Below the pieces are notes generated by a model. It saw only the letters and a list, made by a program, of their open reading frames with translations. It had not been told where the DNA came from and did no database searches. Shown here piece by piece: positions 6,419 to 58,191 of a DNA stretch of 64,000 bases. Position numbers and translations under genes: made by a program. Where the stretch lies: positions 6,260,001 through 6,324,000 of the forward strand of contig NC_079876.1 in NCBI RefSeq assembly GCF_029227915.1. Direction: 5' to 3'. Source of the DNA: Hydractinia symbiolongicarpus. Lineage: Eukaryota > Cnidaria > Hydrozoa > Anthoathecata > Hydractiniidae. Position 1 is the stretch's first letter, and each line of letters opens with the position of its first letter.

Positions 6419-7479
6419 ATGGCAATGGCAGTACCTCCAACAGGATCTTCTCACCACGCATTGATCGCAAACAATGAATATCAAATTAAATTGGTCACGC
6501 TTCTCAATGAATGTTGTGACTACTTACGTGAAATTTTACATGATCCTGCCCGTGGCAACATGCCAAGGGATAAGAAACAATTATATCTGTCATTAAAACA
6601 ATATAAGAAACGTTTAAACCATTTGAAAAGAGATCAGCTGGAAATCGTTTTTCCACAAGATAAGGAAACAGATTCGGGATTGTTTGACATCACTATTTTA
6701 TGTGACGTTCTAATTAATTGTTGTCACGGTATACAAGCACCAATTGGTGGATGGAGGACCAGAACACCGCAACCAAATGATTTCAGTGTCGGTGCTGACA
6801 TCATTCGAATCAGAAATGAGCGGAATATTGTTATGCATGGAAGAGCAATGACTTCAGCACAATATAATCGGTTGTGGAACGCCATAGAAGGTATATTAAG
6901 AAGACTCGGATATGACATAACGAAAATTAGAGATTTGAAGTCTGGTTGTTTAAAAGACTTGGACTTATTTAAGATTGAAATTATGAAAGCAGTTACTGAA
7001 ATTTTAAATTTCAATGTTAACAAAAACCAAGACAATATAAAACAAAATCAAGATGACATCAAAGCAAATAAAGACAGTATTCAGCAAAACGAAGATGGTA
7101 TTAAACAAAATCAAGGTGACATCAAAGCAAATAAAGATAGTATTCAGCAAAACGAAGATGGTATTAAACAAAATCAAGGTGACATCAAAGCAAATAAAGA
7201 CAGTATTCAGCAAAACGAAGATGGTATGAAACAAAATCAAGATGACATCAAAGCAAATAAAGACAGTATTCAGCAAAACGAAGATGGTATTAAACAAAAT
7301 CAAGATGACATTAAAGCAAATAAAGACAATATTCTGCAAAACAAAGGTGGTATTAAAGAGAATAAAGAGAATTATAATCGATTAGCAGCCGAAGTGGAAA
7401 TAGTAAAGCAAACTATTTCTTCATCATCATGTGATCAGAAGAGTTCTCAGTTGGAAGAAACTATAAAAGAACAACCCAG
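6419..7479 (+). CDS. Exon 1: DZIP3-type HEPN domain plus 21-residue coiled-coil repeats
   Basis: Residues 1-353. The helical HEPN domain carries RNIVMHG, which matches the canonical RNxxxH nuclease signature, embedded in the IIRIRNERN context typical of the DZIP3-like HEPN family. From about residue 205 the sequence becomes repeats of a 21-residue unit, three heptads each opening with isoleucine (IKQNQDD / IKANKDS / IQQNEDG), predicting a regular coiled coil for oligomerisation. The donor is CCCAG|GTGTGT, with phase 2. The frame stays open to 7534, but the last 18 codons are intronic if this donor is used. Confidence 0.82.
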
Positions 7480-10400
7480 GTGTGTAATTCTTTTTCTATA
7501 TTGTTCTATCATTAAATTGATTCTGTCAACTTAACATAAAAGGCAAATATGGTAAAGTAAATAAGTTACCATTCAATTAAATTCCACTTTATCTTGGTGT
7601 AACTAAATCACTTTTCTGTAATGATTTCAATGCATTGGAGAGTCATCAGCAATAAGAGTACATCAGATTGAAATTATGACAGCACTGATTGAAATACAAA
7701 AATGTAAAGTAAATAAAAACAAAGACAACATTAAGTAAAATCTATATAACTTTAAGAATGGACTATTTATATTCAAGTTGATGTAAAAAAAACCCAAAAC
7801 GGAGTTAGGAACATTCAAAACGATTATGATTGAAAGACGGAATGGGAACAGTAAAGTCCTTTGTTGTCATCGCGTCGTTCAAAAACTTGTCACTTAAACA
7901 CTATTGACTTAAAACGGCCTAGAAAGAAGATACCTTTCTTTCAGAAAATAAGATTTTATCGTTTTTTAGGACAATATTTCATACAGTTACTTATTATTCT
8001 AATTTATATTTTAATGTTTATTTTAGTTATATACTATTAAAAAATTTCCGAGGAGATTTTCTAATACAATTTGAAGATGGCTGCTCCCACTGGTCTATGA
8101 AAAGTGTACAAGTCATCATTACTGAAAATTTTGTGATAGAATCAAAAGAACTTCATGTCGACAACGATTACATTGTGGAAGAAGAAGAAGGGACACTAAT
8201 CCTGATTATTTACAATCACATTGCCAAATCGATTAATGGGTTATCAGTTAAGTTAGTTGACAGTGAAAGTAAAACTCATTTGATTTCAATTGAAGGTGAG
8301 TAAATTTAGATAATGTATTCTATCTAGTACGGAAAAAATGAATAAGGAGTTGGAACAATAAAAACAAAACAGAACAAAAAAATACATTACTTACTAATGT
8401 AGCTGTGCATGGGGGCAGAGCACAAGTAAAATAAGTTGGGAAAGCTATATTTACAAGTAGAACAAATTTAATCTTAAGGGTTTATTTAAAATATTATTCG
8501 AACCATAAAGAAAACATTGTCAAGATTTTGTTAGAATAGCAATCATTTCAACGATGCAAGCCATTTACCTCGACAAAAGTTTTACTTTGGCTATGCGAAC
8601 GCAAAAATATATAAAAATTATTGCAAAGTTTCTTGAATAATAACGTTTAGTATTCTACACAAAAAACTTTTACGTCTCTAGCGCGTTGTTTTGTACAGCA
8701 CTTTAGATTAAAATTGTTTGAGTAGAAATGTTGCAAAGTAAAATAATTTTTTTAATTAGATATTGCACTGGTCCGAGCACATATGTGTACAACCAGCTAT
8801 TTTGATGTTAGAACCCACAACAGTGGAAGAATATCTGAACAGATAAAATGCATTGTAGGAGCAGAAAGAGAAGAAACAAATATTGAATTTATATGTGGTG
8901 GTAGCCTGCAAACAATGGAACCTAAGGAGTACGAAGCATTTGAAAGAGATTACATCCAGCGTTATTTCACCGTCAATGGTAAATGCATGGAAGAACCACT
9001 CCAAATTCCACCCCCAATGCCAAAAGTCACACATTCCTTATTCGCACAAAAGATAAAGGATGTTATAATCGAATTACAACCTCGTTTGTTTACAATATTT
9101 ACTCATTATAACACAAAGGAACATATTCGATTTCTAAAACTGGATAAAGAATTTTCTTTGAGTTTGGAAAGCACAATTACTGATAACAAAAGAATTCTAC
9201 TTGTGTTGCCAAATTATATCATCAACATTAGATACACAGAAACAACCGACGCAGTAAGAATACAAGATGAAGTCAAAGCGGGCGAAGAAGACTTGAAGGA
9301 GCTATCTATCATCACTAAAAAACATCTTAAAAATGGTCACCTGACAATGGTTAATGTTGTAGCTGCACCACATTTCGAAGATATCGAAAATATCCACCTT
9401 TGTGTAGATTGCAACTTACTCTCCAAAAAAACTTTGGCTGAGGATAGAAATATGACGAAGTTCTTTTCAAATATTTTGCAAAGCTCACAAGTACAAAATA
9501 ATGTTCAGGACAACAAGGAACGGTATATCAACATAGTTGGTAAAGTCATGTGTTTTATGGCTACAAGAAAAGCACTCTATTCTGTTCCTTCACTCAGTAA
9601 AAACGTCCACGAACAAATAAGCTCGTTAATACTTTCTCCACAGCAACTCCGTCATTTATACAACAACTCTTTAAAAAAAATTATAATCGGTCCTCTAGGC
9701 AGTGGTAAGACAGTGCTAGCTTTAGCACATTTGGAAATAGCTTACGAGCGCTCTAAGAATAGATCGGTCATATACTACGTTATTTGGGACGGCAACACAT
9801 TGCTTAAACGGGATATTGTCAATCATACTAAAAGATTTAATTACAAAGCCGCTGTCGAAGTTGTTGTAAAGGATAATGTCCAGTTAGCTAAGGATTTGAA
9901 AATGAATGAAGTGCCAACACCATACCAGTTATTAGAGTCATTGGTTAAGAAACATGTTGACCAAAACCTGCATCTAATAATTGATGAATTAAATGGAGAG
10001 TTATTTAACAAGGAAGAATCATCTTTGCTTAAACACTATCTGGAAACTAAAGACAAATTAAATAACTCTTTCATCATTTTTTTCCCACAATCCATTGAGA
10101 AACATAGAACATTAATTTCACACCAAAGAGTCACAATACATGACAAGTACAAGTATGAAGAAACAGGAATGAAAGTTTTAAAACTGAACAGAGCAATGAG
10201 AACAACCCGGATAATCTTTCAGTTTTTAAAGGCTTTTGAAAATGAAGTAGAACAAGACAAGGTAACAATGAAGCTTCCCGATCAGCAATCAAAAGAAGGA
10301 ATGTCCACCAAAAAAAATATCGAAAAAATACTGAATTTCTTTTCCAAAATTTGGAAAAAACAACCACAACAGCAGCAAGAGCCACAACGGCGACAACAAC

Positions 10401-13400
10401 AACAACAGCAGCAGCGGCAGCAGCAACCACCACCACCACCGCAACAACAAGGACAAACTACCAGTAGCAATGTCACGCCGATAATAAAAGGAGAAGAAGA
10501 AAGTTTTGAAACACCGGTTGATATTGATGTCGTTGCAGCTTCCATACCAGATGGGGATCTTTCGGGTAATGTTAGAATTGACACTTCATTGAAATTTAAT
10601 ACAGCTGATTCAATCGGTCATAATATTGAAGGAACAAAACCGTTATTGATACATCCGGCAAAAACTCCAACAACAGACAAAGAGTTTATACCAATGTTAG
10701 CACTTGTTTTACAAGATGTATGTTTACATCATGCCACTAAACGTTTGTTCATATATAACACATTTCCTCAAAAGGATATTTTTTACAGATTACTGAAACT
10801 GTTAAAAATTGATTTTCTTCGCTACGACAAGTACACTGACTGGAAAGTTTTAAATTCTGATGATATCACAGTTAAAAATCCCTTACAGAGTCAAACTTAT
10901 AACCTGCTCACTACTATTGAGGGAAGTCGTGGAGTTGAAGCAGCCGAATGCATCTGTATAATTGAAAGAAATGATTGCAAGTTAAAACATTTGACGTTAG
11001 AAGCAATGTCCAGAGCAACACAAAATCTGGTCCTTGTTTCAACGTCCAACGTTTACCAATCAGATACAGTAAAATCATCAACTGGTCATATCATAAGTAA
11101 ACTGTTAGCTGAACATTTGGTTGAATACAATGTAGAAGTCTCAAACGATAAAGATACGGAAATACCGTTCACAAAGTCTATGAAAAGTAACAATAAAATA
11201 GTTTTTAACATAAAACCACAATATTGGAAATTCAAAGAAATGATAAAAGATTTGGAACATGTTGGTTGTCAGGCAACGGATGAACGCCTAAATGCGCACG
11301 AGATCGTTAGGAAAAAGTAAGTAAAATTTTTAAACAATAGAGAACAAATTCTCTTCTGAATAGTTCCTAAAAGATTTTAAATTTAGTGATTCATATTAAA
11401 GAATTGGATGGTAATGGTTGTGTTATATTAAAATAAAAAGCTCCCACGAAATGACTAAAGTGTGATCATTTTACAATCCTCTCTCCTTTCTTTCGTGAAA
11501 TTTGTTCTAGAGAGGCAAAAAAATCACGACATATGTTTCAGGGCCTATTCTGTACTTAATAAAAACATTGTAAGAGTTTTCTGATGTTAAAAATGTTAAC
11601 CTGCTGCTAAGCATGAAAATAAAAAAAATTATTAGACAAAATTTTGATCATCTTTTAATTTATTTTATTAAGTAAAAGTCATTAGTTTTGTTAAAAAATA
11701 TGATATAAATGCAATATTAATAATTTTAGCCTTTATCCTCCTGGAAAAGTGAGCAATATAATTTGCTCATATTTGTCAAGTACATCATGTATATTGAGAT
11801 GGCAACAGCACGCTAATAAATACACCGTTAGTAGACAAGAAAGTAAAAGTTTAACCTGGAATAACTTAGCAACTGACATTTCTTGCAATCAATACATCGT
11901 TGATGACATGGAAATTGGTGAAACGTGCAAGTTTTGTGTTGTTGCTAAAAATCATCTTGGTATATCTGATGACAGCATTGTGTCTTATCGTCACGAGTAA
12001 GATTATATTCAACTTCTATTAAAAACATTTTATAGCCATGTGTTAAAAAATATGATATAAATGCAATATTAATAATTTTAGCCTTTATCCTCCTGGAAAA
12101 GTGAGCAATATAATTTGCTCATATTTGTCAAGTACATCATGTATATTGAGATGGCAACAGCACGCTAATAAATACACCGTTAGTAGACAAGAAAGTAAAA
12201 GTTTAACCTGGAATAACTTAGCAACTGACATTTCTTGCAATCAATACATCGTTGATGACATGGAAATTGGTGAAACGTGCAAGTTTTGTGTTGTTGCTAA
12301 AAATCATCTTGGTATATCTGATGACAGCATTGTGTCTTATCGTCACGAGTAAGATTATATTCAACTTCTATTAAAAACATTTTATAGCCATGTGTTAAAA
12401 AGTATGTCAGGCTTCAGGAATATTAACATGTGCTCAATTTTTTTAGACGTCCAAACGTCATGGGTGTCCAATTTGAAGGTAAGAGAAATAGTTATCGTTT
12501 TATCAGCATAATTTTAAGCTAGAAAATCACCACAACACTCTTTGTCACAAAATAGGCATAAAAAAAATTAGCGTGACAAAATAGACAGAAATAAGTGTTG
12601 ATTAATTGTGTGATTTAAAAAAATTAACATTTATTAAAAAATTTTGTTGTTCATGTTATTATTTACCTGTTACAAAAAGAATGCGGAATAGTTAAATATT
12701 TGCTTTCTTCGTTACCCATATTACAACAAACAAATTATTCTAATTATTTGTTAAACATTTAATTTATTTTAAAGTTACATTTACTGTACTTATACCATGG
12801 GACACGCAAAGTCAATTTAATGACACTATTGTCTGAAACGAATTTAGTCCTAGAACCTTTTAAGAATTTTTTTTCCATCTGGTGTTGCTTTTAAAACAGA
12901 TCTTTACTAAAAACGTAAGAGGTTATTAGACGTTTTTGTTTTCCTTTTGTAAAATTTCGACAATGTTTTCTTTCTCGGTCATATGACATTAATTAAGAGA
13001 AACTAAGTGTTATCAAGTAAAAATAAAGCTACTCTGCACATTGGTAATATATATCCTAAAAGGAGGCTTTGGAGTGACAAAACATCAAAGGCAAAAGTAC
13101 TTCCGCTAAAATGTAGTGTGCTGATGTTGCTGTTGTGTCAATAAAAGTGATACAAAACTTCTCACTTGGTATTAATAAAGTTTTCAAACTTTGTCAATAG
13201 AAAAAATTTTGTTCAAATATTGCCATTAATTTTATTACTATCTCGTGGTTGCTCGATTTATTCAAATCATTTGTTTAGCATAGATTATTAATAATTTAAA
13301 AGTAATACATATTTTCTGCATAATTTCTGGTGTAGTTTAGCCTAGTTAGCTAAGTTTTTTCTCGGATATCTAATTCAGTTTTTCTCAAACGAAAGTTTAG

Positions 13401-16400
13401 ACGCAAACAAATGTCAGAGCAATTCCCTTAAATTTAAATTCAAACCACGCATTATTTATGGCTATATCGTACTTTGCTGGGCATAGTTAAAGAAGCAAAG
13501 ATAAACTGCTCAACAAGTGTATGCAAAGTGAGAACGTCCTTTTGAGACCTACATTTACCTGCAAAAGGGATATTTTTACGAAGCGAATTGGGAATAGCGA
13601 ATTCGGCGGCTAATTACCAGCGAAATATCTATTTGATTTTCACGGGAAACAAAAAAAACATGTGACCAATTTAACATTCTGAGTGTAAGCACTTTTTCTG
13701 GTATTAAAAACCGGATAGTTATTTTGAATTCTAAATAAACAGTTTTCTTATTGGTTAAAAGATATTTTATAAAATATTTCTACTTTTCGGGGAAGAGAAT
13801 TTTTCAAAGCAAAATCAAAACAAACAAAACTTTGCATGCTCAGATATATTTAGTTGGCGAACTCGTTTAGCAATACAAACAATGAGGCTGAGGAAAAGAA
13901 AACAAAATAAGAACATCGGCAAGACTAAAACACCAATTTTCTCTCTACTCCCGAGAGAAATACATTTGGCAAAAAGAAATTTTAGCAGAATCAATCGCAA
14001 ATGTTTTTATGAATCTTTGAAATGAATAACAAAATAAAAACTACTTTTACCGGTACATGTTATAATAAGGAACATTTCAGGCTGTAACGAATATAAGCGT
14101 ATATATTGTAAATGTACCTTCAAGCTTCAAGTTTACTCCAATACAACACTAAAGCTTGCTGACTTACCAAATTTCACACCAAGTTTAAAAAAACTATTCC
14201 CTTTTGCCTTTTCTTTTTGAACCCGTAGCTAGCTCTCGGTCATACTTAAATTTCGCATAATAATTTGAAAGTTGATCACTTTGTGCAAAGTTGGACAATG
14301 TTGTATGATGCGAATCCTCCCTGTAAGTCGCTTGGCGCACTATTTACAGTAAAACTCTTATAACGACTACAGCCTCGTCTCTATGTTATATGGACTTTGC
14401 AGAGGGAAAAGCCTGTTATTCAAGTTAGTAATGAAAAGCCTTGTTTTCAAGTTACCCACATTTGAAAAATATTGCTAATAGTAACCACCCGGTGAGAAAA
14501 AACAAACAATCATAAGCAAATCAAATCATTTCGTCGTAAAATTTAGACTGATTTTTTCTTTCCTTGTTCTGACTAGAACGAACAAACTCCCCAAATTTAT
14601 AGTGTAGCGTGTGAGTCTGAGTTAGTGTTAGGCAGTTGATTTTGATATTTAAAGCGCATATTTTGTAAATATACATCATAGATTCAATTTTACTCCAACA
14701 CATACTCTAAAGCTGGCTTACCATACCGAATTTTGCACCAAGTTCGGAAACACTATTTACATTTACCTTTCGTTTTTGAACACATGGCTCTCGGCCATAC
14801 TTAAATTTTGCTGAATACTTTTCAAGCAAGATGCCTCGTACCACTTTACTGTTCCATGCAAAGTGGCTTTCCTGAAGTTGATCACTTTGTACAAAGTTGG
14901 TCAATGTTATATGATGCGATTTCTCACTGTAACTTGCATGGCGTACTATTAACAGCAAAACTCTTATAACGACTACAGCCTCGTTTCTATGTGATTTGAT
15001 TTTGTAAAAATTACATTAGAAATTTGCAGAGGGAAAGCCTGTTTTTCAAGTTAGTTACAATATAGTAATGAATAACCTCGTTTTCAAGTTTTCCACATTT
15101 TTTAAAAATTATTGCTAATACTAACCATCCGGCGGGAAAAAAACAATCATAAGCAAATCAAAAGTCATTTCATCGTAAAATTTAGACTCGGTTGGTTTTT
15201 TGTTTTAACAATATCTTTTTCCTAAAGCTGTTGAGTTTGAATTTTTGCAATATCTAAGGCTCGTGCTCTTTTTTGTTCTTATAAAGAAACCCGCACAGTT
15301 TTTAACCGATCGCGTGTCAGAGAAACATCTTTGAAATGTTCGTACAGACGAAATCGAATATATTGAGTACAGTCGTTCTATTTTTATCACTATATCATAC
15401 TCAACCAAAACGAATATGTTTCATTCAGCAAATAATGTTGATAGGTCGTGTGAGGTGAGAGAAAATTTAATTTTGATAAAAGCAGTAGCTAGTTTTTATT
15501 ATACATTATTTTTATTCATGAGAAACCCGTTTACAATTAATGGAGTATTTACTAAGAGCTGTGTACCTAAGTCTCGTGTTCTTTAGAATTTGTTCTTATA
15601 AAAAACCGATCGCGTGTCAGAGAAACAATCTTTAAATGGTTCGTGCAGACGAAATCGAATATATTGAGTACAGTCGTTCTATTTTTATCACTATATCATA
15701 CTCAACCAAAACGAATATGTTTCATTCAACAAATAATGTTGATAGGTCGTGTGAGGTGAGAGAAAATTTAATTTTGATAAAAGCAGTAGCTAGTTTTTAT
15801 TATACATTATTTTTATTCATGAGAAGTCTGTTCACAATTAACGGAGTATTTACTAAGAGCTGTGTAATTTTAATTTTTTTTTAGAATTTAAACTGAAAAA
15901 ACTAACAAACTCTTTTTGCGTGCTTGAGATTATGCTCTGTCTTGCAAAAAAATCCCTAGGGACAAGAGTGCTAGATTAGACAATACTAATATTTGGTAAA
16001 ATTTTTCCTTTGTTTTAAAAAGCTAATTGAAGATTCATGAAATAAGCAGACTATCCAGCCTCGTTTTCAGATCTAGCCCAGATTTATCTTTTTGTTATTT
16101 TCCGGCATAAGAAATAGATAAAAAATCCCTGGGAACGAAAGTGCTAGACTAGGTTGGTTTATAAAAACGCATTATGTTATCGTAATAATTGTAGGAATAG
16201 CTATATTTACTTCCGAGATTTTTATTAAAAATGTCATGTGAAATTATTTTAACAGGCGAAAAATTTTAGGGTCTCGACTTTAACTGAAACATTTCCGTGG
16301 TTCATACAAGTAAAACAATTTTCTCCTGATGCAAATTATCCTATACATGATGACGTCAACATATTAATATTAACTTGAATAAAAATAAATTATTACTATA

Positions 16401-17544
16401 CTTTTTGTTTCTGTGTTTTCACAATTACTTTTTTTTGTTTAATACATTATAAAATGTTTTACAATATAAAAAAGTATTTAACGATGTCATAAGTTTTTCG
16501 TTATCATGTTTCATTAATTTATAAATTTATAATTTTTATTCATTTATTATTTTATTTTTAGATATCGTGGAAATTATTGAATCTAACGATATCGAGAAAC
16601 TGCAAAAATTACTATCCATTCATCCAAACATCGTTCACATGAGAGATGATCATGAGTTCACACCATTGTTGTGGACAGTATGTTGCACCAACAATACATC
16701 AATGGTGGAAATACTCATCTCATATGGGAGTGATGTTTGGGCGGAAGATAGATTGAAACAAAACAGTTATCATTTTGCTGCATCAGAAGATCGTCACACA
16801 ATATTAGATATGTTATGTCGACATGATGTAACAAACATCAACCGTGGAAATGTTAACAACCGCACACCATTATATCTTGCTGCAAGGAAGGGTTACATCT
16901 CATGTGTTGATGTTTTGTTGCGTCATGAAAATATTGATGTGACGATCGAAGATGAATATGGAAACACAGCTTATGATGTTGTTGGATGGATAAATAAACA
17001 AATCCGGGAAATAATAAGACGAAAAATAAAAGAATACGAAGTAAGTATTTTTAATAAAAAATAGTGAATAATTATAGCTGTTAATAATTCTGACAGCATT
17101 AATTTTTATGTATGTAATAATAATGAGAAGAGATAAGTATATATTATAACGAAATTAAAAATAATAAATTTTATAAGAGAAAAAGAAGAAGTAAAAATAC
17201 AATTTCGTACCCAGACTGTTTTTTATTTTACATCTTCTGAAATTGATTGTTATTATTGTTAGCATGAATTGAATATTATAGATGTTAAAATATTTAAAAT
17301 AAAAGATATTTAAAACATTCAAAAAATAAGAATGCCACGATGTTAAACTTTTTTCGTAATCCGAAATTATTTTGTTTTTTGCACAGCGATTGTACAAATT
17401 TCGCGTTATAAAAGGATTTTATGAACACATTGACAGATTGTCTCTCATTTAGAAGACATGGCCATGACGATGGCTGTTCTAATACTTAAGTAGCTATACT
17501 TTAAAATAACACATCTATTTATCTTTTAGGACAGGACGAAGTAA
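6419..17544 (+). CDS. HEPN - coiled coil - SF1-helicase-like NTPase - FN3 x2 - ankyrin protein (8 exons, 1648 aa)
   Basis: Eight exons with matching phases: 6419-7479, 8027-8295, 8760-11316, 11730-11996, 12082-12348, 12447-12478, 16562-17040, 17530-17544. All introns are GT..AG and the sum is 4947 nt, exactly 1649 codons. Domain order: DZIP3-type HEPN (about 20-165, RNxxxH at R135/N136/H140); 21-residue repeats (about 205-320); beta-rich segment (354-443); P-loop NTPase with SF1 motifs (about 730-1210); two FN3 domains (1297-1384, 1386-1473); ankyrin repeats (1486-1644). HEPN with RNxxxH is typically an RNase; SF1 NTPases remodel nucleic acid; FN3 and ankyrin bind partners. I infer a cytosolic innate-immune or anti-transposon sensor. 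No signal peptide or membrane segment is seen. The start is the first ATG in the frame, just after a possible 5'-UTR acceptor at 6407. Exon joins are inferred from sequence only. Confidence 0.8.
7021..7365 (+). repeat. 63-bp coding tandem repeat
   Basis: About five copies of a 63-nt unit inside exon 1, encoding the 21-residue coiled-coil repeat. Copies differ by a few substitutions, and the last is more diverged. Confidence 0.85.
8027..8295 (+). CDS. Exon 2: beta-rich segment linking HEPN and NTPase
   Basis: Ninety residues running from a TTTTAG acceptor to a GAAG|GTGAGT donor. Phases match exon 1 (phase 2) and exon 3 (phase 1). The exon opens before the first ATG, with residues such as FRGDFLIQFEDGCSHWS. 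The alternation of short hydrophobic stretches suggests a small beta domain. I do not recognise the fold. The open frame with no stop and perfect phase agreement is the main evidence that it is coding. Confidence 0.68.
8760..11316 (+). CDS. Exon 3: superfamily-1-helicase-like P-loop NTPase
   Basis: An 853-residue exon. Walker A is GPLGSGKT (protein 754-761) after a Q-motif-like SPQQLRHLY. Walker B is LHLIIDEL (D852/E853). A sensor-like strand SFIIFFPQS follows, then LNRAMRTTRII (motif IV type, about 918). The C-terminal half has TTIEGSRGVEAAE (motif V type, about 1161) and EAMSRATQNLVLVS (motif VI type, arginine about 1195). This order matches SF1 helicases and the related DUF2075/Schlafen-like NTPases rather than NACHT or STAND. 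A Gln/Pro low-complexity loop (about 978-1009) is inserted between the two RecA-like halves. Whether it unwinds nucleic acid is unknown. The donor is AA|GTAAGT. Confidence 0.82.
11730..11996 (+). CDS. Exon 4: fibronectin type III domain, copy 1
   Basis: Eighty-nine residues with FN3 hallmarks: a proline-rich start (YPPGKVSN), the core tryptophan in CILRWQQ, the tyrosine in KYTV, a second tryptophan (LTWNNL), and the closing CVVAKNHLGIS, which fits the F-x-V-x-A-x-N-x-x-G pattern. Acceptor and donor are both phase 2, so the exon can be repeated without breaking the frame. Confidence 0.8.
12082..12348 (+). CDS. Exon 5: fibronectin type III domain, copy 2 (identical to copy 1)
   Basis: Same 267 nt as exon 4, and the flanking intron sequence is also the same; I saw no difference across the 352-bp repeat unit. 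Symmetric phase 2-2 boundaries mean inclusion of both exons keeps the downstream ankyrin exon in frame. It is a very recent tandem exon duplication or, alternatively, an assembly duplication. Confidence 0.75.
12447..12478 (+). CDS. Exon 6: 32-nt linker exon
   Basis: A short exon from a pyrimidine-rich acceptor (TTTTTTTAG) to GAAG|GTAAGA. It encodes RPNVMGVQFE and converts phase 2 to phase 1, exactly what is needed between the FN3 and ankyrin exons. The following intron is about 4.1 kb and holds tandem duplications. Confidence 0.6.
14100..15190 (+). repeat. Diverged tandem duplication in the 4.1-kb intron
   Basis: Sequence at about 14110-14560 recurs at about 14660-15185 with many substitutions and an extra segment. 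Shared landmarks include CTCTTATAACGACTACAGCC and GTTGATCACTTTGTRCAAAG. Confidence 0.7.
15268..15873 (+). repeat. 301-bp tandem duplication in the 4.1-kb intron
   Basis: Two close copies, spaced 301 bp, both starting near ACCGATCGCGTGTCAGAGAA and ending near TACTAAGAGCTGTGT. A frame of 82 codons in the second copy has no family resemblance. Confidence 0.8.
16562..17040 (+). CDS. Exon 7: ankyrin repeats
   Basis: About 160 residues forming three to four ankyrin repeats. Recognisable signatures include HEFTPLLWTVCCTNN, a degenerate second unit (NSYHFAASEDR), and NRTPLYLAARKGYISCVDVL, followed by EDEYGNTAYDVV. The acceptor is TTTTTAG and the donor GAA|GTAAGT, phase 0. Exon 8 (17530-17544) adds DRTK and a stop. 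AATAAA at 17719-17724 is a plausible polyadenylation signal. Confidence 0.8.
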
Positions 17545-18179: not shown

Positions 18180-20030
18180 ATTTATTTATAATAATATTAT
18201 TTAATGTTTAAAAGAACTGTTAATAAATATTGTATAATATATTAAACATTCACACTTGCTTACCTGTTTTTAATTTCCAGTACTTCTCCCCTTTTTTTTT
18301 AAACTTCTTCCCATTTTAAAAAAGTTCATCTTATTCTGATTATACTGAAGAACAGCAAATTAACATTTATTAAGTAAAATTCGAAATAATAAAGCAAATA
18401 TAAAGACACATTTTCTTGTGTTTACATGATACTCGTCAAAAGCCGCCATTATATGGTAATTTTTTTTGTGGGATGAAATCCAGATTGACGTCATCTCCTA
18501 GATGGTAAAAGAAACCCCATGAACATGTTGCCGCAAAACTCATAAAACATTCTTGTGAATAATTATAAAATTAATGTCTAAGTAAAATAGAAGTAGTGCC
18601 AGAAAGCATTCTTTCGTTTCAGTCTCCCAACAGGTCAGAATCAACGAGCTGCGTGAACCATCCTCGTCCCCATCCTTGTTGCCTGATAAGTCAAATCCGC
18701 TAGCGCTCGGGCTACATCTCAATAAGGCAAGAACTCCTGGGAACGTGGTTGTGCGTGGACCCATGAACAGAGTAGATACTTTTTCAAAACGAGTATAATA
18801 TAAGATGAACACTTTTCACCGGATGTTTTGATCAACGCTGTCAAAAAGCCTGTGGTAAATTTTAATCATAGTAAATGGAGTCCTGCGCAAATCTCAGCAT
18901 AGATCCTGCGCAAATTTCAATACGCACTCGTCTTTTACGTTGCACCTAGGGCTTCCCTTATTATAATACAGGAATTTACGGACTTCTATTTTGATCTGCG
19001 CGTTATTTTTGCTTGCCGGAACCTTTGACCGTTTGCGGGAATTCTATCCTCGATCACAGGACATGTCGTGATGATCAACGCTTTCTGAATCAAAAACGCT
19101 TGCTGAGTTAAACTGTGTAATCAACAAAAACTCTGTCCATGTGGGCATTGCTATACATTTTCTACTCTTTTGCGGACTTTTCCGTGAGGGAAGTAGCAAA
19201 ATAAGTTATTGCTCATCTCCAGTACCTGTTACAATCTCATCTTCAAACAAAACAAAACAACCGTATGATATATATAAAACCGCTTATCCATGTGGGTATG
19301 GTGACATGATCCATCGATTTGGGAGATCCGTTCTAGAACTACGTATGATTTCAAACTTCGTGTAAATTTGATTTATCAGCATTTTAAGTACAAATTGCGC
19401 GACCTCACTCAAAATTGGTTAGCTTTAATAAAGCTCAGAGAGTATGCTGATGCTGGTCATGAGTAAAATTCTGCCGGGGATTATTTCTTGATGGAACTAT
19501 CCGTCCAATATGTCAAACCAAAAGATGTCAACAAGCTATATACAATGGCAATAAACAGATCTATTCTTTTAAATTTTAAAGCGTTGTTGGACTAAACGGT
19601 TAAATTGCGAGTTTGTATGGACCTACGGAAGGTAGGAGACGCGATTGTGCTCTTTTGAATACTTCCGGATTACTTCAAAGTTTACAACATTCACATTCTC
19701 CTCATGAACAGTTATTGTGCATTTATGGTTATCTTGCATACCTCATTCGTCCACAAATAATATGGATGCGAATATAGTACTAATCAAAGACCGTTAAATG
19801 AGGCCATGAGCAAAGTGAGAATATCTGTGGAATGTATATTTGGTGACATTGTGAATTACTCGCATTTTTAGAAAAAGTTGAAGATAGGCTTGAGTGCTGC
19901 TGGAAAAATGAATTCACTTTGTGCACTTCTTCATGATGAATTCAGAATTCTTAAAGTTCTCTGGAGTTTATCGGTTCATGTTAAGAAGATTTTATACCAT
20001 ATTTGTTTAAAATCTTTGCAACGTCAGTGC
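18180..20030. other. Non-coding stretch
   Basis: No convincing exon. A CCTGGGAACGTGGTTG copy of the dispersed motif lies at about 18734. Confidence 0.45.
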
Positions 20031-25668: not shown

Positions 25669-25904
25669 GTGAGTTTTAAGATATAACAAGAAGCCCTGGG
25701 GGCTCTAAGAATTTCCGCGCGCTACCAAAATATTTGATGAAAACCTGCTAATTCGTTGTGTTATTGTGCCAAACATTCGAAGGGGTTTGGTGCATGAACC
25801 TCTGAAGATAAAGCCCATCAGTGACATTATATCTTACAACAAACGCAAACAAAACGAAACGTGTCATATTAAACTCACATTTTAAAAGAAATTGCTAACA
25901 AAAA

Positions 25905-27040
25905 ATACAGGGGTGACAAAAAATCAAACTTTTGTACCATCATCATTTTCAGCATACTTTATTTGTTAACCGTGCCAGATTTAGCCGAAAATGAAGTGGT
26001 TTTAATTTTTGGACCAATTTTGGTCTAAAATGGCATTTAGGTGACAAAAATCAAAATTTTGATGTCACCATTATGTTCAGCATACTTTTTTTGTTAACTT
26101 TGCCAATTTTTGTTGAAAATGAAGTAGTTTTAATTTTTGGACCAATTTTGGCCTAAAATGGCATTTAGGTGACAAAAATCAAAATTTTGATGTCACCATT
26201 ATGTCAGCATACTTTTTTTGTTAACTTTGCCAATTTTTGTTAAAAATGAAGTAGTTTTAATTTTTGGACCAATTTTGGCCTAAAATGATATTTAAGGTGG
26301 CAAAAAACCGAAATTTTGATGTCACCATCATGTTCACCATACTTTTTTTGTTAATTGTGCCAAAATTTGTCAAAAATTAAGTAGTTTTAATTTTTGGACC
26401 AATTTTGGCCTAAAATGACATTTAGGTGACAAAAATCAAAATTTTAATGTCACCATTGTGTTCAGCGTACTTTTTTTGTTAACTTTGCCAATTTTTGTTA
26501 AAAATGAAGTAGTTTTAATTTTTGGACCGATTTTGGCCTAAAATGGCATTTAGGTGACAAAAATCAAAATTTCGATGTCACCATTATGTCAGCATACTTT
26601 TTTTGTTAACTTTGCCAATTTTTGTTAAAAATGAAGTAGTTTTAATTTTTGGACCAATTTTGGCCTAAAATGACATTTAAGGTGGCAAAAAACCGAAATT
26701 TTGATGTCACCATCATGTTCACCATACTTTTTTTGTTAATTGTGCCAAAATTTGTCAAAAATTAAGTAGTTTTAATTTTTGGACCAATTTTGGCCTAAAA
26801 TGACATTTAGGTAACAAGAAATCAAAATTTTGATGTCACCATCATGTTCAGCATACTTTATTTGTTAACTGTTCCAAATTTTGTTGAAAATAAAGTAGTT
26901 CTAATTTTTGGACTAATTTTGGCCTAAAATGACATTTAAGTGACAAAACTCAAAATTGATATGTCACCATTATGTTCAGCATACTTTTTTTGTTAACTGT
27001 GCCAAATTTTGTCGAAAACAAATATCAATTTTGGCCTGAA
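25905..27040 (+). repeat. ~128-bp satellite array with trimeric higher-order repeat
   Basis: About nine monomers of roughly 128 bp sharing TAGTTTTAATTTTTGGACC and AATTTTGATGTCACCAT. Variants recur every third copy: ATGTCAGCAT at 26201 and 26586, TGTTCACCAT at 26331 and 26716, both 385 bp apart. So two trimers form a higher-order repeat, flanked by more diverged edge copies. Confidence 0.9.
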
Positions 27041-27404
27041 GCGTCAATACTAGACTTCCCAGTAGTTAAGGAGCTTGGGTACGAAGTTTACATCTGTGAC
27101 GGTCCAACGTGAAATCCCAGGGTCGATTTTTTCTCAAAAAATGCTCCGAAAGAAAAAAACGACGGTTTTAAAGAATTTCCTACGCCTTCGGGCGCGGAAA
27201 TTCAATAAAAAAATTGATCTTTTGACCAAGAGAAACAAAAAGCAGTAGTTTTCTTTAAAAAAGAAAATCTTTGTGTGTGTTACAAACTTAATTTTTTGGA
27301 TATTAATTTGAAAAATCACAAGATTCTCTTCGAAGATATCAAGAACAAGGAGTCACCAAATCCTTTGGTCCGGAACTCCTTTTTTGTGATTGTTGGAAAA
27401 AAAC

Positions 27405-28564: not shown

Positions 28565-29312
28565 TCTTTGTAATATACAGTAATACACTGTAGTACTTAG
28601 TTATATGCCGCATTGTATACTGTAGTACTTAGTAATGTGCCGTATTACTTTGTAGTATCCAGTAATGCACTGTAATACCTTGTAGTAGTATACAGTAACA
28701 TACTGTAATAATCTTGTAGTATTCGGTAATATACTGTAATACCTTGTAATATTCGGTAATATACTGTAATACCCTGTAGTATTCGGTAATACACTTTAAT
28801 ACTTTGTAGTATTCAATAATGCACTGTAATACCTTGTAGTATCCAGTAATACACTGTAATACCTTGTAGTATTCGGTAATACACTGTAATACTCTGTAGT
28901 ATTCAGTAATACACTGTAATACCTTGAAGTATTCGGTAATATACTGTAGTGCCTTGTAGTATTCGGTAATACACTGCAATGCCTTGTAGTATTCAGTAAT
29001 ACACTGTAATACCTTGTAGTATTCGGTAATATACTGTAATACCTTGTAGTATTCCGTAATACGCTGTAGTACTTTGTAGTATTCAGTAATACACTGTAAT
29101 ACCTTGTAGTATTTAGTAATATACTGTAATAAGTAGTATACTGTAATACCTTGTAGTATTCAGTAATACACTGTAATACCTTGTAGTATTCAGTAATACA
29201 CTGTAATACTTTGTAGTATTCGGTAATACACTGTAGTACTTAGTAACATCTAACTGTAATATTTTGTAGTATTTGGACACTGTAATACTTAGTAACATAC
29301 TGTAATACACGT
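28565..29312 (+). repeat. 30-bp minisatellite (about 25 copies)
   Basis: The unit is approximately CTTGTAGTATTCAGTAATAC plus ACTGTAATAC. Copies are irregular at both ends. On the minus strand the 30-nt period leaves open frames of a decapeptide (VLQCITEYYK), most likely a by-product. Confidence 0.92.
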
Positions 29313-40475: not shown

Positions 40476-42793
40476 ATGGCCTCCAGCACAGTAACGAAAA
40501 GAACACAAAAATCGCAGGAGCAACTTGATATACTAGAAGCTATGTACGACAAGGGAATGACGTGTTACGGAAGAGACAACATTGGTTCTTTGACTTTACT
40601 GAGGGAAGCGGTAGAACAAACAGGGCTAACAGAGATCCAAGTCAAGGTTCAGTTTCCGCTCTATCGCCATTTACCAAAAGACAATGAGTCACGAAAATAA
40701 TTTTACACTTTATCTTTATTTAGAACTGGATTGATCAAAAAAGAAGAAAAAAGCAGGAAAAAACAGAAAATATCCGTGCACGACGGATGCGAGGATTTGA
40801 TATATTTCGATCCGAGTATATTTCCTCTCTGACAGGCAATATGAGCTAGTTTTTGTAAAAAATAATAACATTCATTTCACATGTTAAGATATAAGTTTAA
40901 TTTTGAATTGATATATTTTGGGTACTAACCATGATAGCGCTTTAGCATTAAAAAACGCCAATCGAGCATGGGGTGGAATGTCAGAAATTGAAAAGTCATC
41001 GTACTGTGATAAAGCTACAACTTTCAAACTTCCGGAATTCAAAGACATGAGCGCAGAGCAACAACGGCTAAAAATTCAACAGACTCGCCGAAAGATTGAA
41101 TTCCTGGTAAACAATATTGACTATCAGGAGAGAAATTTCTGTAAATTTATTTTAGCAAAGGTTCTTTAACAATTATTAACGTAATGTAACCCAATGTTGA
41201 AAACATTTTTCTTAATTACCTTGTTATTCTAGTGCAAAGAAATGTTGTCATTTAACATAGAAACATTGGTTATTGATGTTGATTGCAAGAGGAATAGAGG
41301 TCACACTTCTGTGTACGGCAGCCAACGAGGTGTAGACTTTGTAGAACAGCATCATGATATCGAGTGGGAGTTTTCATGTTTCGCTGCAGGTTTGAAGTTT
41401 CCGACAAAAATATGCTTTCCTCCAAACAACGTGAATAAAAATGTTAGCTTTAGCAATTATTCTGCTATTTATAATTTTAGGTGTTTCTGAGAACAGTGCC
41501 AAAGCTTCAAAAAGTGATGGAGACAAAGTTACTGAAGCGCTTAACAAAAAGATATGTAAGTATTTTTGCACTTTCATGCATCAGAGCTAATAGCGTTTTT
41601 TGATATGAGGATTATCCAAATATTTGATATAAGATATCAAAAAAACGCTACATGCCCTAAATTTGGCGCTGGTATACGAGGCTTTCTGCGATATTTATGA
41701 TGTTCATACAAATATTTAGATAGATTTAGCATCATGTGGGAAATGGACGCGTGTACCGTACCGAAAGATAACTGAAGGCGAAGTAAAAGTTCTCGGAATA
41801 CCACCGGGTTTCATTTTTAAGAAACCGTCAAACTGTACGAAATTGGAACTATCCATATTATTGGATAACATGGAACATATAAAATTTTTAGGTATAAACA
41901 TCTTTTCTTATCCATTACAGAAAAACAGTTCTTTTTTTTACATCATATCATACCTTAAGGGAATTATTTTTGCGGGAAAATGTTTCGAAAATAAAAATGA
42001 TTTTCGCGAAGTTAGCAAGTCCTAATATTTTTGCGAGAATGAATTCCCTAAAAATTAATTCCCTTATGGTCAGGTCAAGTGCCAAAACTAATTTACCGCA
42101 GTCTAAGTCGTTTGTTTATATTTGTCATTTAAAAAGATTTATGAAAATAATATTTCTTCAAGAAAAGAAACTTTGCGGTTTCGCGGTTTTTGGCATTTTT
42201 ACTGGGAAAGTTTAGCAAATTGTTGCCAACATTTTTACAGATTGGCAAAAATTTGCTAAACTTTCCCAGTAAAAATGCCAAAAGTCGCGAAACTCAAAGT
42301 TTCTTTCCTTGAAGAAATAAAACCTTATTTTGCCATAGTTATTCAGCGAAAAAACCAATCCCACCAGGGTCATCAGGTTAGTCTCCAACCTCCTACCGAC
42401 GCAGTCGTAGAAAATAGTGAGGTTGTCAATGAAAATATGGAAGCTGCGGTGACTGAAATTTTGACAGATCCTGTTCCCTCAAATGTTAAGAAAAGAAAAA
42501 AAGGAAGTCATAAAAAAATGAGTCAGCTTGACGACAATTGTCAAATGCTTGAGCTGACCGATAAAGTCCCGAATTCAAGAGAGCTTGGCATAACCCTTCA
42601 AGAAGTAATGTCCCAAGCCAGTGTTGATAAAGGCTTTGTCGATTACATCCTGAAGGATAGAGAAAGAGAAAGTGGACATCAAAATATTACTGAATACCTG
42701 ATAAAGTGGATTGGTTATGAGGTACCAACGTGGGAGCCGGAGGAGAATGTAAATTCGGCGGATATAAAAAGATATTTTTTGAACAAAAAGTAA
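40476..42793 (+). CDS. Divergent homeodomain - HMG-like - chromodomain protein (7 exons, 473 aa)
   Basis: Exons 40476-40646, 40724-40835, 40946-41160, 41233-41389, 41481-41555, 41724-41891, 42270-42793; the sum is 1422 nt and phases agree throughout. Residues 8-70 form a homeodomain-like unit (QEQLDILEAMY ... TGLTEIQVK|NWIDQKRRKK), with Gln where invariant Asn51 is expected. Residues about 80-130 look like an HMG box (FDIFRSEY ... ANRAWGGMSEIEKSSYCDKA). An unrecognised domain has KWTRVPYRKITEGEVKVLGI. Residues 421-468 are a chromodomain (YLIKWIGYEVPTWEPEENV). Intron 2 has a GC donor (ACAG|GCAATA) with a TACTAAC branch site. The last join (exon 6 to 7) is the weakest. Probably a nuclear chromatin-binding protein, perhaps transposon-derived since it abuts a KDZ element. 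Confidence 0.6.
41955..42066. mobile_element. MITE-like inverted repeat in intron 6
   Basis: TTAAGGGAATTATTTTTGCG at the left faces ...TTAATTCCCTTA at the right, about 112 bp in total, with TTTCGCGAA between. Small foldback elements of this look are common in cnidarian genomes. Confidence 0.4.
42170..42300. repeat. 50-bp-arm inverted repeat spanning a splice acceptor and exon start
   Basis: Left arm 42170-42220 and right arm 42251-42300 are near-perfect reverse complements (shared core GGCATTTTTACTGGGAAAGT), with a 30-nt spacer. The inferred acceptor at 42269 and the ATG at 42275 lie in the right arm. Confidence 0.85.
42275..42793 (+). CDS. Chromodomain-containing terminal exon
   Basis: A 172-codon open frame. 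The C-terminal 50 residues are a chromodomain: VDYILKDRERESG, then EYLIKWIGYEVPTWEPEENV. They supply aromatic-cage positions Tyr, Trp and Trp for methyl-lysine binding. A basic stretch (KKRKKGSHKK) precedes it. The frame is open from 42260, and an acceptor TTTCCCAG|TA at 42269 allows the join to the upstream exons. AATAAA follows at 42875-42880. If the join is wrong it could be a separate gene starting at 42275. Confidence 0.7.
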   Translation: MPKVAKLKVSFLEEIKPYFAIVIQRKNQSHQGHQVSLQPPTDAVVENSEVVNENMEAAVTEILTDPVPSNVKKRKKGSHKKMSQLDDNCQMLELTDKVPNSRELGITLQEVMSQASVDKGFVDYILKDRERESGHQNITEYLIKWIGYEVPTWEPEENVNSADIKRYFLNKK

Positions 42794-43440: not shown

Positions 43441-44429
43441 TTATGTGGGGGGACGCAAACCACAATGATTATCCATGCATTTAAAAACGAAACGTTCAAT
43501 GCGAGCTTCAAGTAGCGCATCTTTGAAATTCAGAGGTTTTAATTCCATAATTGTCGCAATAGTAAATCCAAACGCGTAAATATCGGTCATGTATGACACG
43601 CCGCTTCCCCTATACAATTCTGGTGCCACGTGATGATGGTCGGTTAATTTTTTTAAAACGTCTTTAACGTTAGATTTCGCACAAGACGCTCGACATGCGA
43701 ATGAAAACCCGATAATGACCGGAGTGAAGTCACTACCTTTTACCATGACATTTTCAGGAATTATGTTGTTGTGTAACACTCCTTTATCAAATAAAAAAGA
43801 GAGTGCTTTAGCTAGCCCAATAATAATTTGTTTTATTATGTCTTCTGTGGGAAATATTACCTTCCGCTTCAGCAAAATTTTTATGCTGCTATCCCCTTCA
43901 TAGCTAAGCACAGAATGAAATTTTCCTTTGGCGTGTACAATACCAAAGACCTGTACAATATTGGGATGATTCCCAACAAACTGTAGCAGTCGTGCTTCGT
44001 GGCTAACATAAGCTAGGTTGCGCAGAGATGTTTCCTCTTTACCAAGTGCTAAGTAACTTTTTAAAATTACAGAATCTCCTTCGTCAAACACAGCACGGGT
44101 CACTTCTGCGAAATGACCAGAAAATATGACATTGGAAGCCAGGCCGGAGATTACCTCACTTGTCAAAATTGTGGGCGTTTGTTCTTGTAACAACGGATCG
44201 CCATTATGGAAGAACGATGAAAACAACGATGCATCAACCATTAGTGACGATCGAGAATGTCCAAGCTGTTCAAACATCTTTAGCTTTGTGAAATCCGCAC
44301 ATTGCAGCATCATCGAAGCATTTTTCTCTCTCAGAATGTGTATAGTCTTCTTTTGACTCGCTACGATCTGCTTGTATCTTTCAACAGCTTCTTTTGCTTT
44401 CTTCAATTCCATTTTTAACTTTTCGTTCT
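43441..44429 (-). CDS. Coiled coil - pseudokinase exon
   Basis: The 332-codon frame is probably a terminal exon: no good ATG, but an acceptor (TTTCCTGTGCCCATAG) lies at its start. Residues 5-45 are a charged coiled coil. A protein-kinase fold follows: Lys127 (VILKSY), Glu148 of helix C (SHEARLL), LHNNIIPENVMV at the catalytic loop, IGFSFA at the DFG site, APELY and TDIYAFG. Catalytic Asp (HRD) and metal-binding Asp (DFG) are both replaced (HNN, GFS), so it should be catalytically dead. Layout (LHNDxKxxN ... HHHVAPELYRG) resembles the invertebrate HND-type kinase-like family. It ends at RPPT, just short of the last helix. Upstream exons are unassigned. Confidence 0.72.
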
Positions 44430-44520
44430 CTATGGGCACAGGAAAGGTAAAGGTAAGCCGTTGTTATTTTGAGTCACGAGAACAATCCTAAGTAAAATAA
44501 GCGAAAAAGAAAATTTAATG

Positions 44521-55943: not shown

Positions 55944-56691
55944 TACGGCCGGAAATTCATGTAGACTGTTGTTTTGCGAGCTACTTTACGTACCGGCACC
56001 CTAAGCAACGTTCATTTACACATATGCGCGAAGAAAGACTGGACTTTCATTGTTTTCAGAAACTTTTATTAGAAAAAAAAGTACTTTCTTCAGGGATATT
56101 AACGTAACGAACTTTAAAAACATAAAGATATAATTATTACATTGATATGTTATCTTATAATAACTCTAGTTATCTTACAATTAGGACATTAATGTGAATA
56201 TCCACGCATTCCAAAATTACATTGATAGAGTTATCTTAAGATAGCACTTGTTATCTTAAAATAACTGTATTATGGTGACTTTTGAATGCCGTAGAGCTAA
56301 GCCGAAACCATCGCGCTATCGCAATTAAAAAAGTATTAAAATTAGAAACTTAAATTTAGAGTTAAAAACTCTAATTTAGTATTTTTAGAAAAAATAACTT
56401 TTCTTTTTTATTCCCAGATCTCCTTCCTGGTTATTCTGGAAGTTGGATATGTCAGGTTAACAATAACAAATTTTGAAGAGGTTTTTCTGATTGTGTAAAA
56501 TTTTTCTGACGCTAACGTTAATTATTTACTAAGGGTAATCCACCATACCTTAGTTTAAAGGGGCGATTGTGGAAGTCCCATGAAATGCCACATAGTGATG
56601 GTGTCACTTTAAAACACACCCAGTCCGGTCTGTGAACGGTTGGCGCTAGGAAGGGCATCCAGCTGTAAAACAATGCCAAAACTCTTTATTA

Positions 56692-58191
56692 ATGGCCGTA
56701 AGAATAGTTAATCAGACAAACTGCGTAAACGGGGCTGGAACTCTAAGGAGTGAAGGTGTCGCGCACGGTAGGACAGATGTCAGATGTGAGCATCGTCAGA
56801 CCGTTACCCAGCTATCACATCACAAGGTAGATAACACTAGGTTGAGGATGGCTAGTGTAAATGTTGGTACTCTGAGAGGTAGAGCAGGTGAAGTAGTTGA
56901 AATGTTAGAACGTAGATCTGTTGATATGTGTTGTGTTCAGGACGTTAGGTGGAGAGGAGCTTCAGTGAGATTTGTGGAAGGTAGGAGGGCAAGGTATAAG
57001 CTTTTTTGGATTGGTAATAGTGATGGATATGGAGGAGTTGGCATATTCGTTGCAGAGAAGTGGGTAGAAAAAGTAATAGATGTTATGCGTGTTAATAGTC
57101 GTATTATAGTGATAAAGTTTTTGATAGGTAATAGGATTGTCACTTTTCTGTCAGTTTATGCTCCACAGTGTGGACTCAGTGAGGAAGATAAAGATAAGTT
57201 TTATGATGAGTTAATAGCAGTCACATCAAAGTTTGGAGACACTGAACTTGTCATGGTGGGCGGCGACTTTAATGGTCATGTTGGGAAGTCATCTGAAGGT
57301 TATAGAGGTGTGCATGGAGGCTATGGATTTGGGAGCAGAAATAAGGAAGGGGAGAGATTGCTTGAGTTTGGAATGGCAACGGACATGGTCGTTTGCAACA
57401 CATCATTCAGTAAGAGACAGAGTAGGCTGATAACATATGAGTCAGGTGGTTGTAAGACACAGATAGATTACTTTTTGGTTAGAAAGTCAGACAAGAAAGT
57501 GGTGAAGGACGTGAAAGTTATATTGGGGGAAGAGTGTGTTTCCCAGCATAGGTTGCTGGTTTGTGATATTATCTTGAAGAGTGTCAGAGAAGCCAAGAGA
57601 AAGTACAGGCCTCGTCGAAAAGTCTGGAAGCTGAAGGAAGAGATTGTAGCAAGACAATTTAGTGCAAAAGTTCAGCAGTTAGCCTACAATAGTCAATGTG
57701 ATAGTGACAATGTTGAAAGTACTTGGACTACCTTGAAGAATTGTCTTCTAGAAGCTTCTGATGATACCTGTGGGTGGACGAAAGGACCAGCTAGACATAG
57801 ACAGACCTGGTGGTGGAATAATGAGGTTGACCAGTGTATAAAGGAAAAGAGGAAACTTTGGAAAGAGTGGAAGTCAGGTGGTAGTAAAAATATTTACTTA
57901 GAAGCTAATCGTCGGGCTCGTACAGCAGTGTATAAGGCAAAATCAGAAGCAGAGAGAAACAGATTTGCAGATGTGTTAAGAAGGGAAGACCAGCGCAATG
58001 AGGTATTCAAGATAGCAAAGCAAATGAAGAAGACTAATCAAGATATTGTAGGTGAGAAGTGTATACGTAATGATGAAGGTGTTTTGGCTAGCACAGAGGA
58101 GGAGAAAAGGGTAGCTTGGAAGAATCACAGAGGTTGCTTAACACTGAGTTTGATTGGGACGAGGATAATTTGTCTGATGATGATGTCGTAG
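56692..58191 (+). pseudogene. LINE endonuclease segment
   Basis: A 499-codon frame. Endonuclease hallmarks are present, but two catalytic positions are changed: the usual QETRW is QDVRW and the usual SDHRL is SQHRL. The frame after about residue 475 is spurious because the reading frame shifts. Confidence 0.75.

Follow-up and report, generated by a model that had tools for sequence, protein, structure and literature searches.

The 64,000-nucleotide stretch of the Hydractinia symbiolongicarpus genome analysed here (C2:6260001-6324000, hereafter the window) carries an eight-exon gene whose predicted product combines a HEPN domain, a P-loop nucleoside triphosphatase (NTPase), fibronectin type III (FN3)-like domains and ankyrin repeats. 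We think it probable that this gene is one of a family of predicted immune receptors of the cytosol, expanded in the Hydractinia lineage, in which a conserved ribonuclease (RNase)/NTPase effector is coupled to a hypervariable sensor in a layout resembling that of nucleotide-binding oligomerization domain (NOD)-like receptors (NLRs). We regard it as a variation on known HEPN receptors, set apart by its unusual NTPase and by an ankyrin exon that is both hypervariable and exchanged. An earlier note on this DNA had described the protein; the large gene family, the copy-specific FN3 duplication, and the hypervariability and exchange of the ankyrin exon are additions to it.

Gene structure and paralogues in the Hydractinia genome

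Rebuilding the gene from the sequence yielded eight plus-strand exons with compatible phases and GT..AG borders, which assemble into a stop-free frame of 1648 amino acids beginning with an ATG at position 6419. Exon 1 (6419..7479), with a conserved donor, encodes a DZIP3-type HEPN domain (residues 59-178; Pfam HEPN_DZIP3, PF18738, 5e-19, 69 bits against a cut-off of 27) followed by a coiled coil of 21-bp repeats (a repeat family with this spacing lies within 6949-7430). Exon 2 (8027..8295), recovered by tblastn in paralogues, encodes a beta-rich linker without significant Pfam match, and exon 3 (8760..11316) comprises a conserved pre-NTPase region (exon residues 1-271) and the P-loop NTPase. 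Two FN3-like exons (11730..11996 and 12082..12348; Pfam fn3 2.8e-4, 21.4 bits, below the cut-off of 25) and a small exon 6 (12447..12478) are followed by a 4.1-kb intron, the ankyrin exon 7 (16562..17040; Pfam Ank_2 2.1e-20, above the cut-off) and a terminal exon encoding DRTK and a stop (17530..17544). The check proposed in the earlier note, a Pfam search of each exon, thus bore out the HEPN and ankyrin assignments, while fn3 stayed below its cut-off and no profile for superfamily 1 (SF1) was significant.

The strongest evidence for this gene came from its relatives. We searched 480,894,487 bases in 76 contigs, and all paralogue counts cover the H. symbiolongicarpus genome alone. HEPN_DZIP3 matched 108 times genome-wide. 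For the NTPase exon, 75 matching pieces were merged into 53 places, a lower bound because 118 candidates were found and 53 scored. By NTPase identity to the window, these fell into group A (23 copies including the window, 91-100%), group B (11 copies, 46-64%) and group C (19 copies, 35-43%). A HEPN match lay on the same strand within 20 kb upstream in 23/23, 8/11 and 3/19 copies of groups A, B and C, respectively (34/53 in total), and an ankyrin exon followed the NTPase in 23/23, 10/11 and 17/19 (50/53). The ankyrin linkage was computed on 61 of the 150 matches and the others were compared by eye; among these, too, none lay within 20 kb downstream of the three NTPase copies lacking an ankyrin exon. 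The HEPN-less genes of group C, such as L043 and L044, are found at 12.6-13.9, 6.0, 10.8 and 11.5 Mb of C2, and a reading of 4.5 kb in L043 and L044 brought up no alternative N-terminal domain.

Exon borders were conserved together with exon order. Exon 2 was matched by tblastn in all 23 close (group A) copies and, within the flank covered, in two of seven more distant loci. From the donor of exon 1 through to that of exon 3, five splice dinucleotides were kept in 23/23 close copies, and the borders of the FN3 exon and exon 6 were kept in the 22 close copies other than the window. In a first alignment the FN3 borders had been readable in only 2/23, as the aligner had paired single FN3 exons with the second FN3 of the window. 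Even the distant group C member L045, which is located on another chromosome (C14) and has an NTPase only 40% identical, contains HEPN, exon 2, NTPase, FN3 and ankyrin parts in this order. Order and splice sites conserved across paralogues are our main evidence that these parts form one gene, and they confirm that a single real, if so far predicted, gene stands behind the reassembled exon set. The proposals of the earlier note that the exons assemble unforced into a 1648-residue frame, and that HEPN, NTPase, FN3 and ankyrin parts make up a single predicted protein, therefore held.

The two FN3 exons of the window are 100% identical tandem copies with a spacing of 352 bp (11689-12340), while 29 other loci have a single FN3 within 1.5 kb downstream of the NTPase. 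The second copy thus stems either from a very recent duplication or from an error of assembly, and a double FN3 was dropped as a family-wide feature. At the 3' end, the last acceptor with DRTK and stop was recovered in four of eight sequences searched; two of the others were too short to reach it and two had diverged (L045, L082). A coding end inside exon 7 by read-through was discarded, as the donor after exon 7 was kept in the nine other copies inspected. An apparent break of homology 3' of the ankyrin exon (~50% similarity) was likewise rejected: ~450 bp directly past the ankyrin donor (~17050), present in other close copies, are deleted from the window copy, and homology resumes beyond.

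The HEPN domain retains its predicted RNase site RNxxxH (RNIVMH, 6821..6838), as the earlier note had stated, and this motif was present in all 32 NTPase-linked HEPN domains read, window included (34 are linked, two were unread). Of eight HEPN domains that this linkage rule left unlinked, RNxxxH occurs in six and RDxxxH in one, while the last has lost the arginine. RNIVMH also conforms to Rx4-6H, the RNase motif of DZIP3/hRUL138-like HEPN domains. Nothing specific emerged from PADLOC, NCBIfam or PHROGs, since what matched in PADLOC, like the SMC-type hits, fell on the coiled coil, and no HEPN relatives were detected in viral contigs, the sole collection searched for this domain.

Motifs and class of the NTPase

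Exon 3 certainly encodes a P-loop NTPase. Motifs resembling Q, I, II, III, IV, V and VI occur in this order and are conserved across 30 loci: a Q-like motif (LSPQQLRH, 9632..9655, QQ in 30/30), Walker A or motif I (GPLGSGKT, 9689..9712, GxLGSGKT in 30/30), Walker B or motif II (LIIDELN, 9974..9994, DE in 30/30), a motif III-like FFPQSI (10079..10096, conserved across loci), a motif IV-like KLNRAMR (10181..10201, final MR in 30/30), a motif V-like TIEGSRGVE (10913..10939, GxRGxE in 30/30) and a motif VI-like EAMSRAT (11000..11020, MSR in 30/30). The arginine of motif VI is absent from the distant member L045. A low-complexity poly-Q/P insert (10355..10453), whose length varies among copies, separates the halves of the NTPase. 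The motifs were assigned against what we take to be the SF1 consensus. In a shuffle test, for which the search expression was written post hoc, motifs V and VI co-occurred in 2 of 200,000 shuffles and IV, V and VI in none. The retention of Walker A, Walker B and the late SF1 motifs, as previously noted, thus extends to all 30 loci, and by motif order SF1 is our best call for the class of the enzyme.

The alternative that survives best is that the NTPase is a switch of the AAA or STAND (signal transduction ATPases with numerous domains) type, and the protein an ordinary HEPN-STAND-repeat receptor, that is, an NLR with a divergent NOD. We consider this unlikely. Despite its clear Walker A, the NTPase exon of the window matched no Pfam family at cut-off, and neither NACHT nor NB-ARC was among the Pfam matches of this exon (E up to 1) or of 14 family members. 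Weak matches among the 14 members were mixed (ResIII in 10, AAA_22 in 10, AAA_14 in eight, ATPase_2 in four, NPHP3_N in four); ATPase_2, NPHP3_N and a sub-threshold nSTAND_NTPase5 match point towards AAA/STAND enzymes. The SLFN-g3 helicase family, in turn, was matched at 0.027 in one of the 14 members and at 0.051 by the family consensus, both below cut-off. The N-terminal half of the consensus barely exceeded the ResIII cut-off in one query (5.2e-5, 23.7 bits against 22.5), which speaks for a helicase-like enzyme, though a longer version of this query fell below it (21.8 bits).

Aligning the NTPase-family profile to single proteins was similarly ambivalent. HelD, with a probability of 12%, was the best hit and favours SF1, yet RecD (5.7%) was closely followed by the STAND protein MalT (4.9%), ahead of viral UvrD (2.6%), UvrD (1.7%), RecB (0.4%), DnaA (0.4%) and RecQ (0.3%). 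The C-terminal half alone gave helicases no advantage (UvrD 0.8%, MalT and RecQ 0.4%, HelD and RecD 0.1%). Furthermore, HEPN-NACHT is the common combination in cnidarians (PMC8260672). Against an AAA/STAND switch stands the ordered motif series with GxRGxE and MSR in 30/30 loci. A PDB sequence search with single pieces and with the 14-member profile yielded no relative, none of the NTPase exon was detected in viral contigs or among prokaryote genomes, plasmids and phages, and the exons scanned gave no Pfam match to the Schlafen core (AlbA-like) domain. The earlier description of the NTPase as SF1-like and not NACHT/NB-ARC was accordingly upheld in its negative part, while the support for its SF1 part comes only from the motifs, the profile signals being weak and mixed.

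Selection on the parts and probable exchange of the ankyrin exon

To compare constraint along the gene, we used ratios of nonsynonymous to synonymous change, as pairwise rates (dN/dS) and per alignment column (pN/pS). Among close copies, median pairwise dN/dS rose from 0.22 in HEPN (200/210 pairs usable) and 0.34 in the NTPase (225/253) to 0.47 in the pre-NTPase region (211/253), 0.60 in exon 2 (186/253) and 1.24 in FN3 (150/253). Per-column pN/pS followed the same order (HEPN 0.36, NTPase 0.43, pre-NTPase 0.50, exon 2 0.64, FN3 1.8), and was significantly below 1 in HEPN (P=1.3e-6) and the NTPase (P=7e-9). The FN3 ratio differed from those of HEPN (P=3e-4) and the NTPase (P=5e-4) and marginally from that of exon 2 (P=0.06), and exceeded 1 without significance (P=0.11). 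These patterns indicate that HEPN and NTPase are under purifying selection, so that constraint acts on the putative effector end of the protein but not on the sensor end.

In the ankyrin exon, dN exceeded dS in 6/6 pairs among four close copies (ratios 1.5-5.6), and comparison with the distant L082 and L045 gave ratios of 0.17-0.44. Where the 201-400 bp of intron directly upstream were 96-99% identical to the window, the ankyrin exon itself was just 88-91% identical, so the exon evolves more rapidly than the neutral sequence next to it. We then mapped the changes in nine close copies (the window and eight chosen) over residues 1-139, ahead of a one-residue indel. As ligand contacts we took repeat positions 2, 3, 5, 13, 14 and 33, which we assume to be those randomised in designed ankyrin libraries. 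Of 22 contact positions, 20 varied in amino acid, as did 21 of the 90 remaining repeat positions (P=6e-9), with 74 replacement and 5 silent changes at the former and 33 and 13 at the latter. Relative to the silent rate of the exon, the ratio of replacement to silent changes (N/S) was 5.7 at contacts and 0.65 elsewhere in the repeats. When the marked set was slid by 1-12 residues in either direction, at most 14 variable positions and at most 38 replacements were captured; a ten-sequence version, frame-shifted past the indel, gave 23/27 compared to 38/106 (P=3.6e-6). In the nine exons, selection was therefore concentrated on the ligand-contact face, as in hypervariable-repeat receptors such as fungal NLRs.

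The ankyrin exon also appears to have moved between genes. Genome-wide, 43 full-length ankyrin exons were at least 76% identical to that of the window, and 42 of these stood behind an NTPase exon (23 in group A, five in B, 14 in C); a further match above this threshold, a 48-residue fragment on C3, was counted separately. Such exons also occur behind NTPases just 39-58% identical, and the mean identity of the 42 linked exons to the ankyrin exon of the window was 80% in each of the three groups. Ankyrin and NTPase identity were uncorrelated in 41 genes with the shared ankyrin type (rho 0.07) and correlated in the eight other linked genes (rho 0.87). In L044, with an NTPase 38% identical, DNA similarity to the window is confined to intron repeats, the ankyrin exon with ~130 bp before it, and one additional 40-bp match inside the NTPase. 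Those group B and C genes that carry the shared ankyrin type all lie on C2, and A copies are also found on C6, C10 and C11. Similar ankyrin exons behind distant NTPases point to exon exchange, and the simplest reading would be exchange or conversion among the genes of the C2 cluster.

The intron ahead of the ankyrin exon contains an element (15327-15866) in two copies 96% identical, and this element recurs ahead of the ankyrin exons of L043 and L044 at 93-95%; it is a possible substrate for exon exchange. C1 carries many ankyrin exons ~36-47% identical, most of them far from any NTPase copy found, which represent another ankyrin family.

We judge it improbable that redundant copies are merely decaying, or evolving under relaxed constraint, and that the ankyrin variability has no role in recognition. 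An in-frame NTPase stop in two close copies and an FN3 ratio not significantly above 1 would fit such decay. However, the replacements are confined to contact positions, none of the 57 linked ankyrin matches (listed to 1.9e-3) needed frame repair, the 43 full-length exons contain no internal stops, and HEPN and NTPase of the same genes stay constrained. A comparably small chance is given to allorecognition, in which the variable surface would read self and non-self between colonies instead of pathogens. Hydractinia is a model of colonial allorecognition with highly variable genes, but the published allorecognition complex is on chromosome 3 (PMC13119343), whereas our cluster is mainly on C2, if contig numbers equal chromosome numbers; moreover, the predicted protein looks cytosolic, a judgement made with no tool search for membrane or signal segments. 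Slightly less probable still is that HEPN, NTPase and ankyrin parts are separate neighbouring genes with phases fitting by chance: although their joining is predicted from genomic DNA, the ankyrin exon lies behind a long intron and ankyrin exons of weaker similarity occur elsewhere, notably on C1, the recurrent order and strand, the linkage of all but one of the closely related full-length ankyrin exons to an NTPase and the conserved splice dinucleotides argue against it.

Neighbouring features, known systems and a proposed mechanism

Elsewhere in the window, we observed pieces of a non-LTR (long terminal repeat) retrotransposon (56650-59753; endonuclease-like 2.4e-5, reverse transcriptase 5e-32, PHD finger 4.3e-7), a protein kinase-like frame on the minus strand (43441-44463; Pkinase 3.6e-21) and a chromo-domain frame (42260-42793; 4.9e-8) that, at a guess, probably derives from a mobile element. 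Tandem repeat blocks occupy 28653-29221 and 25767-27093, with spacings of 10/30 bp and ~128 bp. Short frames at 19604-19868 resemble PIF/Harbinger transposase remnants by eye, one of them without Pfam match.

Several parts of the architecture have precedents. DZIP3-type HEPN domains are fused to ankyrin, NACHT, CARD, TPR, RING and LRR domains in animals, with lineage-specific expansions of the DZIP3/hRUL138-like type in Nematostella and oyster (PMC3710099). The Hydractinia family shares with these proteins the PF18738 HEPN with RNxxxH, the ankyrin fusion and the expansion, and differs in that the ATPase described there is NACHT and here another P-loop NTPase with SF1-like motifs, accompanied by FN3 and an exchanged, hypervariable ankyrin exon. 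HEPN-NACHT proteins are expanded in cnidarians, with 17 to 83 proteins in anthozoans (PMC8260672), and in pearl oyster (PMC9646362). The NLR-like cnidarian proteins resemble ours in their N-terminal HEPN, central NTPase and large expansion; unlike them, with their LRR, TPR or WD40 repeats, the present family has no NACHT match, ankyrin repeats and an NTPase encoded in one exon. In fungal NLRs with hypervariable ankyrin, TPR and WD repeats, the ankyrin sites under positive selection lie on the concave face used for binding (PMC4986451), and both this selection and the shuffling among members parallel our findings; there, however, tandem repeats are diversified within an array, while here it is the ankyrin exon in its entirety that varies and moves between genes, in combination with a HEPN effector.

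More generally, the order of effector, NTPase and C-terminal repeats is that of NLRs, from which the family departs by its lack of NACHT or NB-ARC matches. With Schlafen group 3 and UvrD-like SF1 helicases it shares the order of motifs Q, I, II, IV, V and VI; the SLFN-g3_helicase match was weak and below every curated cut-off, and no Schlafen core appeared among the Pfam matches. RNase L, whose ankyrins are N-terminal and accompanied by a kinase-like domain and an HEPN of the KEN type, also joins an ankyrin sensor to a RNase of the HEPN superfamily, although the kinase-like and KEN-type parts are unmatched here. Literature searches for Hydractinia with HEPN, and for HEPN with helicase as Dzip3/hRUL138, did not return this architecture, a weak negative from partly accessible texts with few subscription papers covered. 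The statement in the earlier note that no named animal family has this exact order needs qualification: with DZIP3-like HEPN fusions to ankyrin, NACHT, CARD, TPR and other domains already on record (PMC3710099), novelty lies in the NTPase type, in FN3 and above all in the diversification.

Several points weigh against the receptor interpretation that we prefer. Nineteen of 53 NTPase copies have no HEPN within 20 kb upstream, and 16 of these belong to group C, the most distant one, which indicates that HEPN is not universal in the family. Two of the 23 close copies contain one in-frame stop each in the NTPase exon, and copy counts can be inflated by retained haplotypes: the C2 copies at 6.27, 11.07 and 11.78 Mb share 99% identity in the NTPase, although the ankyrin exons of the latter two are only 80-81% identical to that of the window. 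Over the whole ankyrin exon, pN/pS was just 1.55 (P=0.03), the strong signal being limited to contact positions, and the set of these positions, modelled on designed ankyrin libraries, was applied once the variability had already been seen. A single-sequence fold model reached a pLDDT (predicted local distance difference test) of 30.9, and none of the profile searches confirmed the NTPase class. Finally, the claims of one protein, of RNase activity and of ATPase activity are all drawn from the genome sequence.

Taking these together with the evidence above, the predicted receptor might operate as follows. The ankyrin face, perhaps aided by FN3, would bind a fast-changing foreign or altered protein, and ligand binding would release or trigger the NTPase, acting as a switch or a motor. 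The ATP cycle and the coiled coil could then bring HEPN domains together, and the HEPN dimer would cut RNA of viral or cellular origin, in the manner of RNase L and of the HEPN proteins that act in abortive infection in prokaryotes. By analogy, activation would be expected to end in cell death or in an arrest of translation. The range of specificities may come from the number of germline copies together with exon exchange and selection. The patterns of selection lend support to the sensing step, while RNA cleavage is suggested by the conserved active-site motif and by family precedent. The RNA-cutting role in defence put forward in the earlier note keeps the status of an inference.

With roughly even confidence, we propose that the family amounts to a naturally occurring counterpart of the designed libraries of ankyrin binders: in dozens of genes, constant HEPN and NTPase parts are combined with one ankyrin exon that is varied at its contacts and passed between NTPase clades, giving a combinatorial, germline-encoded intracellular repertoire that would trigger RNA cleavage. 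If this is true, an early-branching animal would possess a large repertoire of intracellular receptors with a constant putative RNase effector and a mobile, diversified ankyrin exon, an animal parallel to the hypervariable NLRs of fungi and plants with a different NTPase. As Hydractinia can be crossed, cloned and genetically modified, the ligand, the trigger and the RNA target of these receptors would then be directly approachable.

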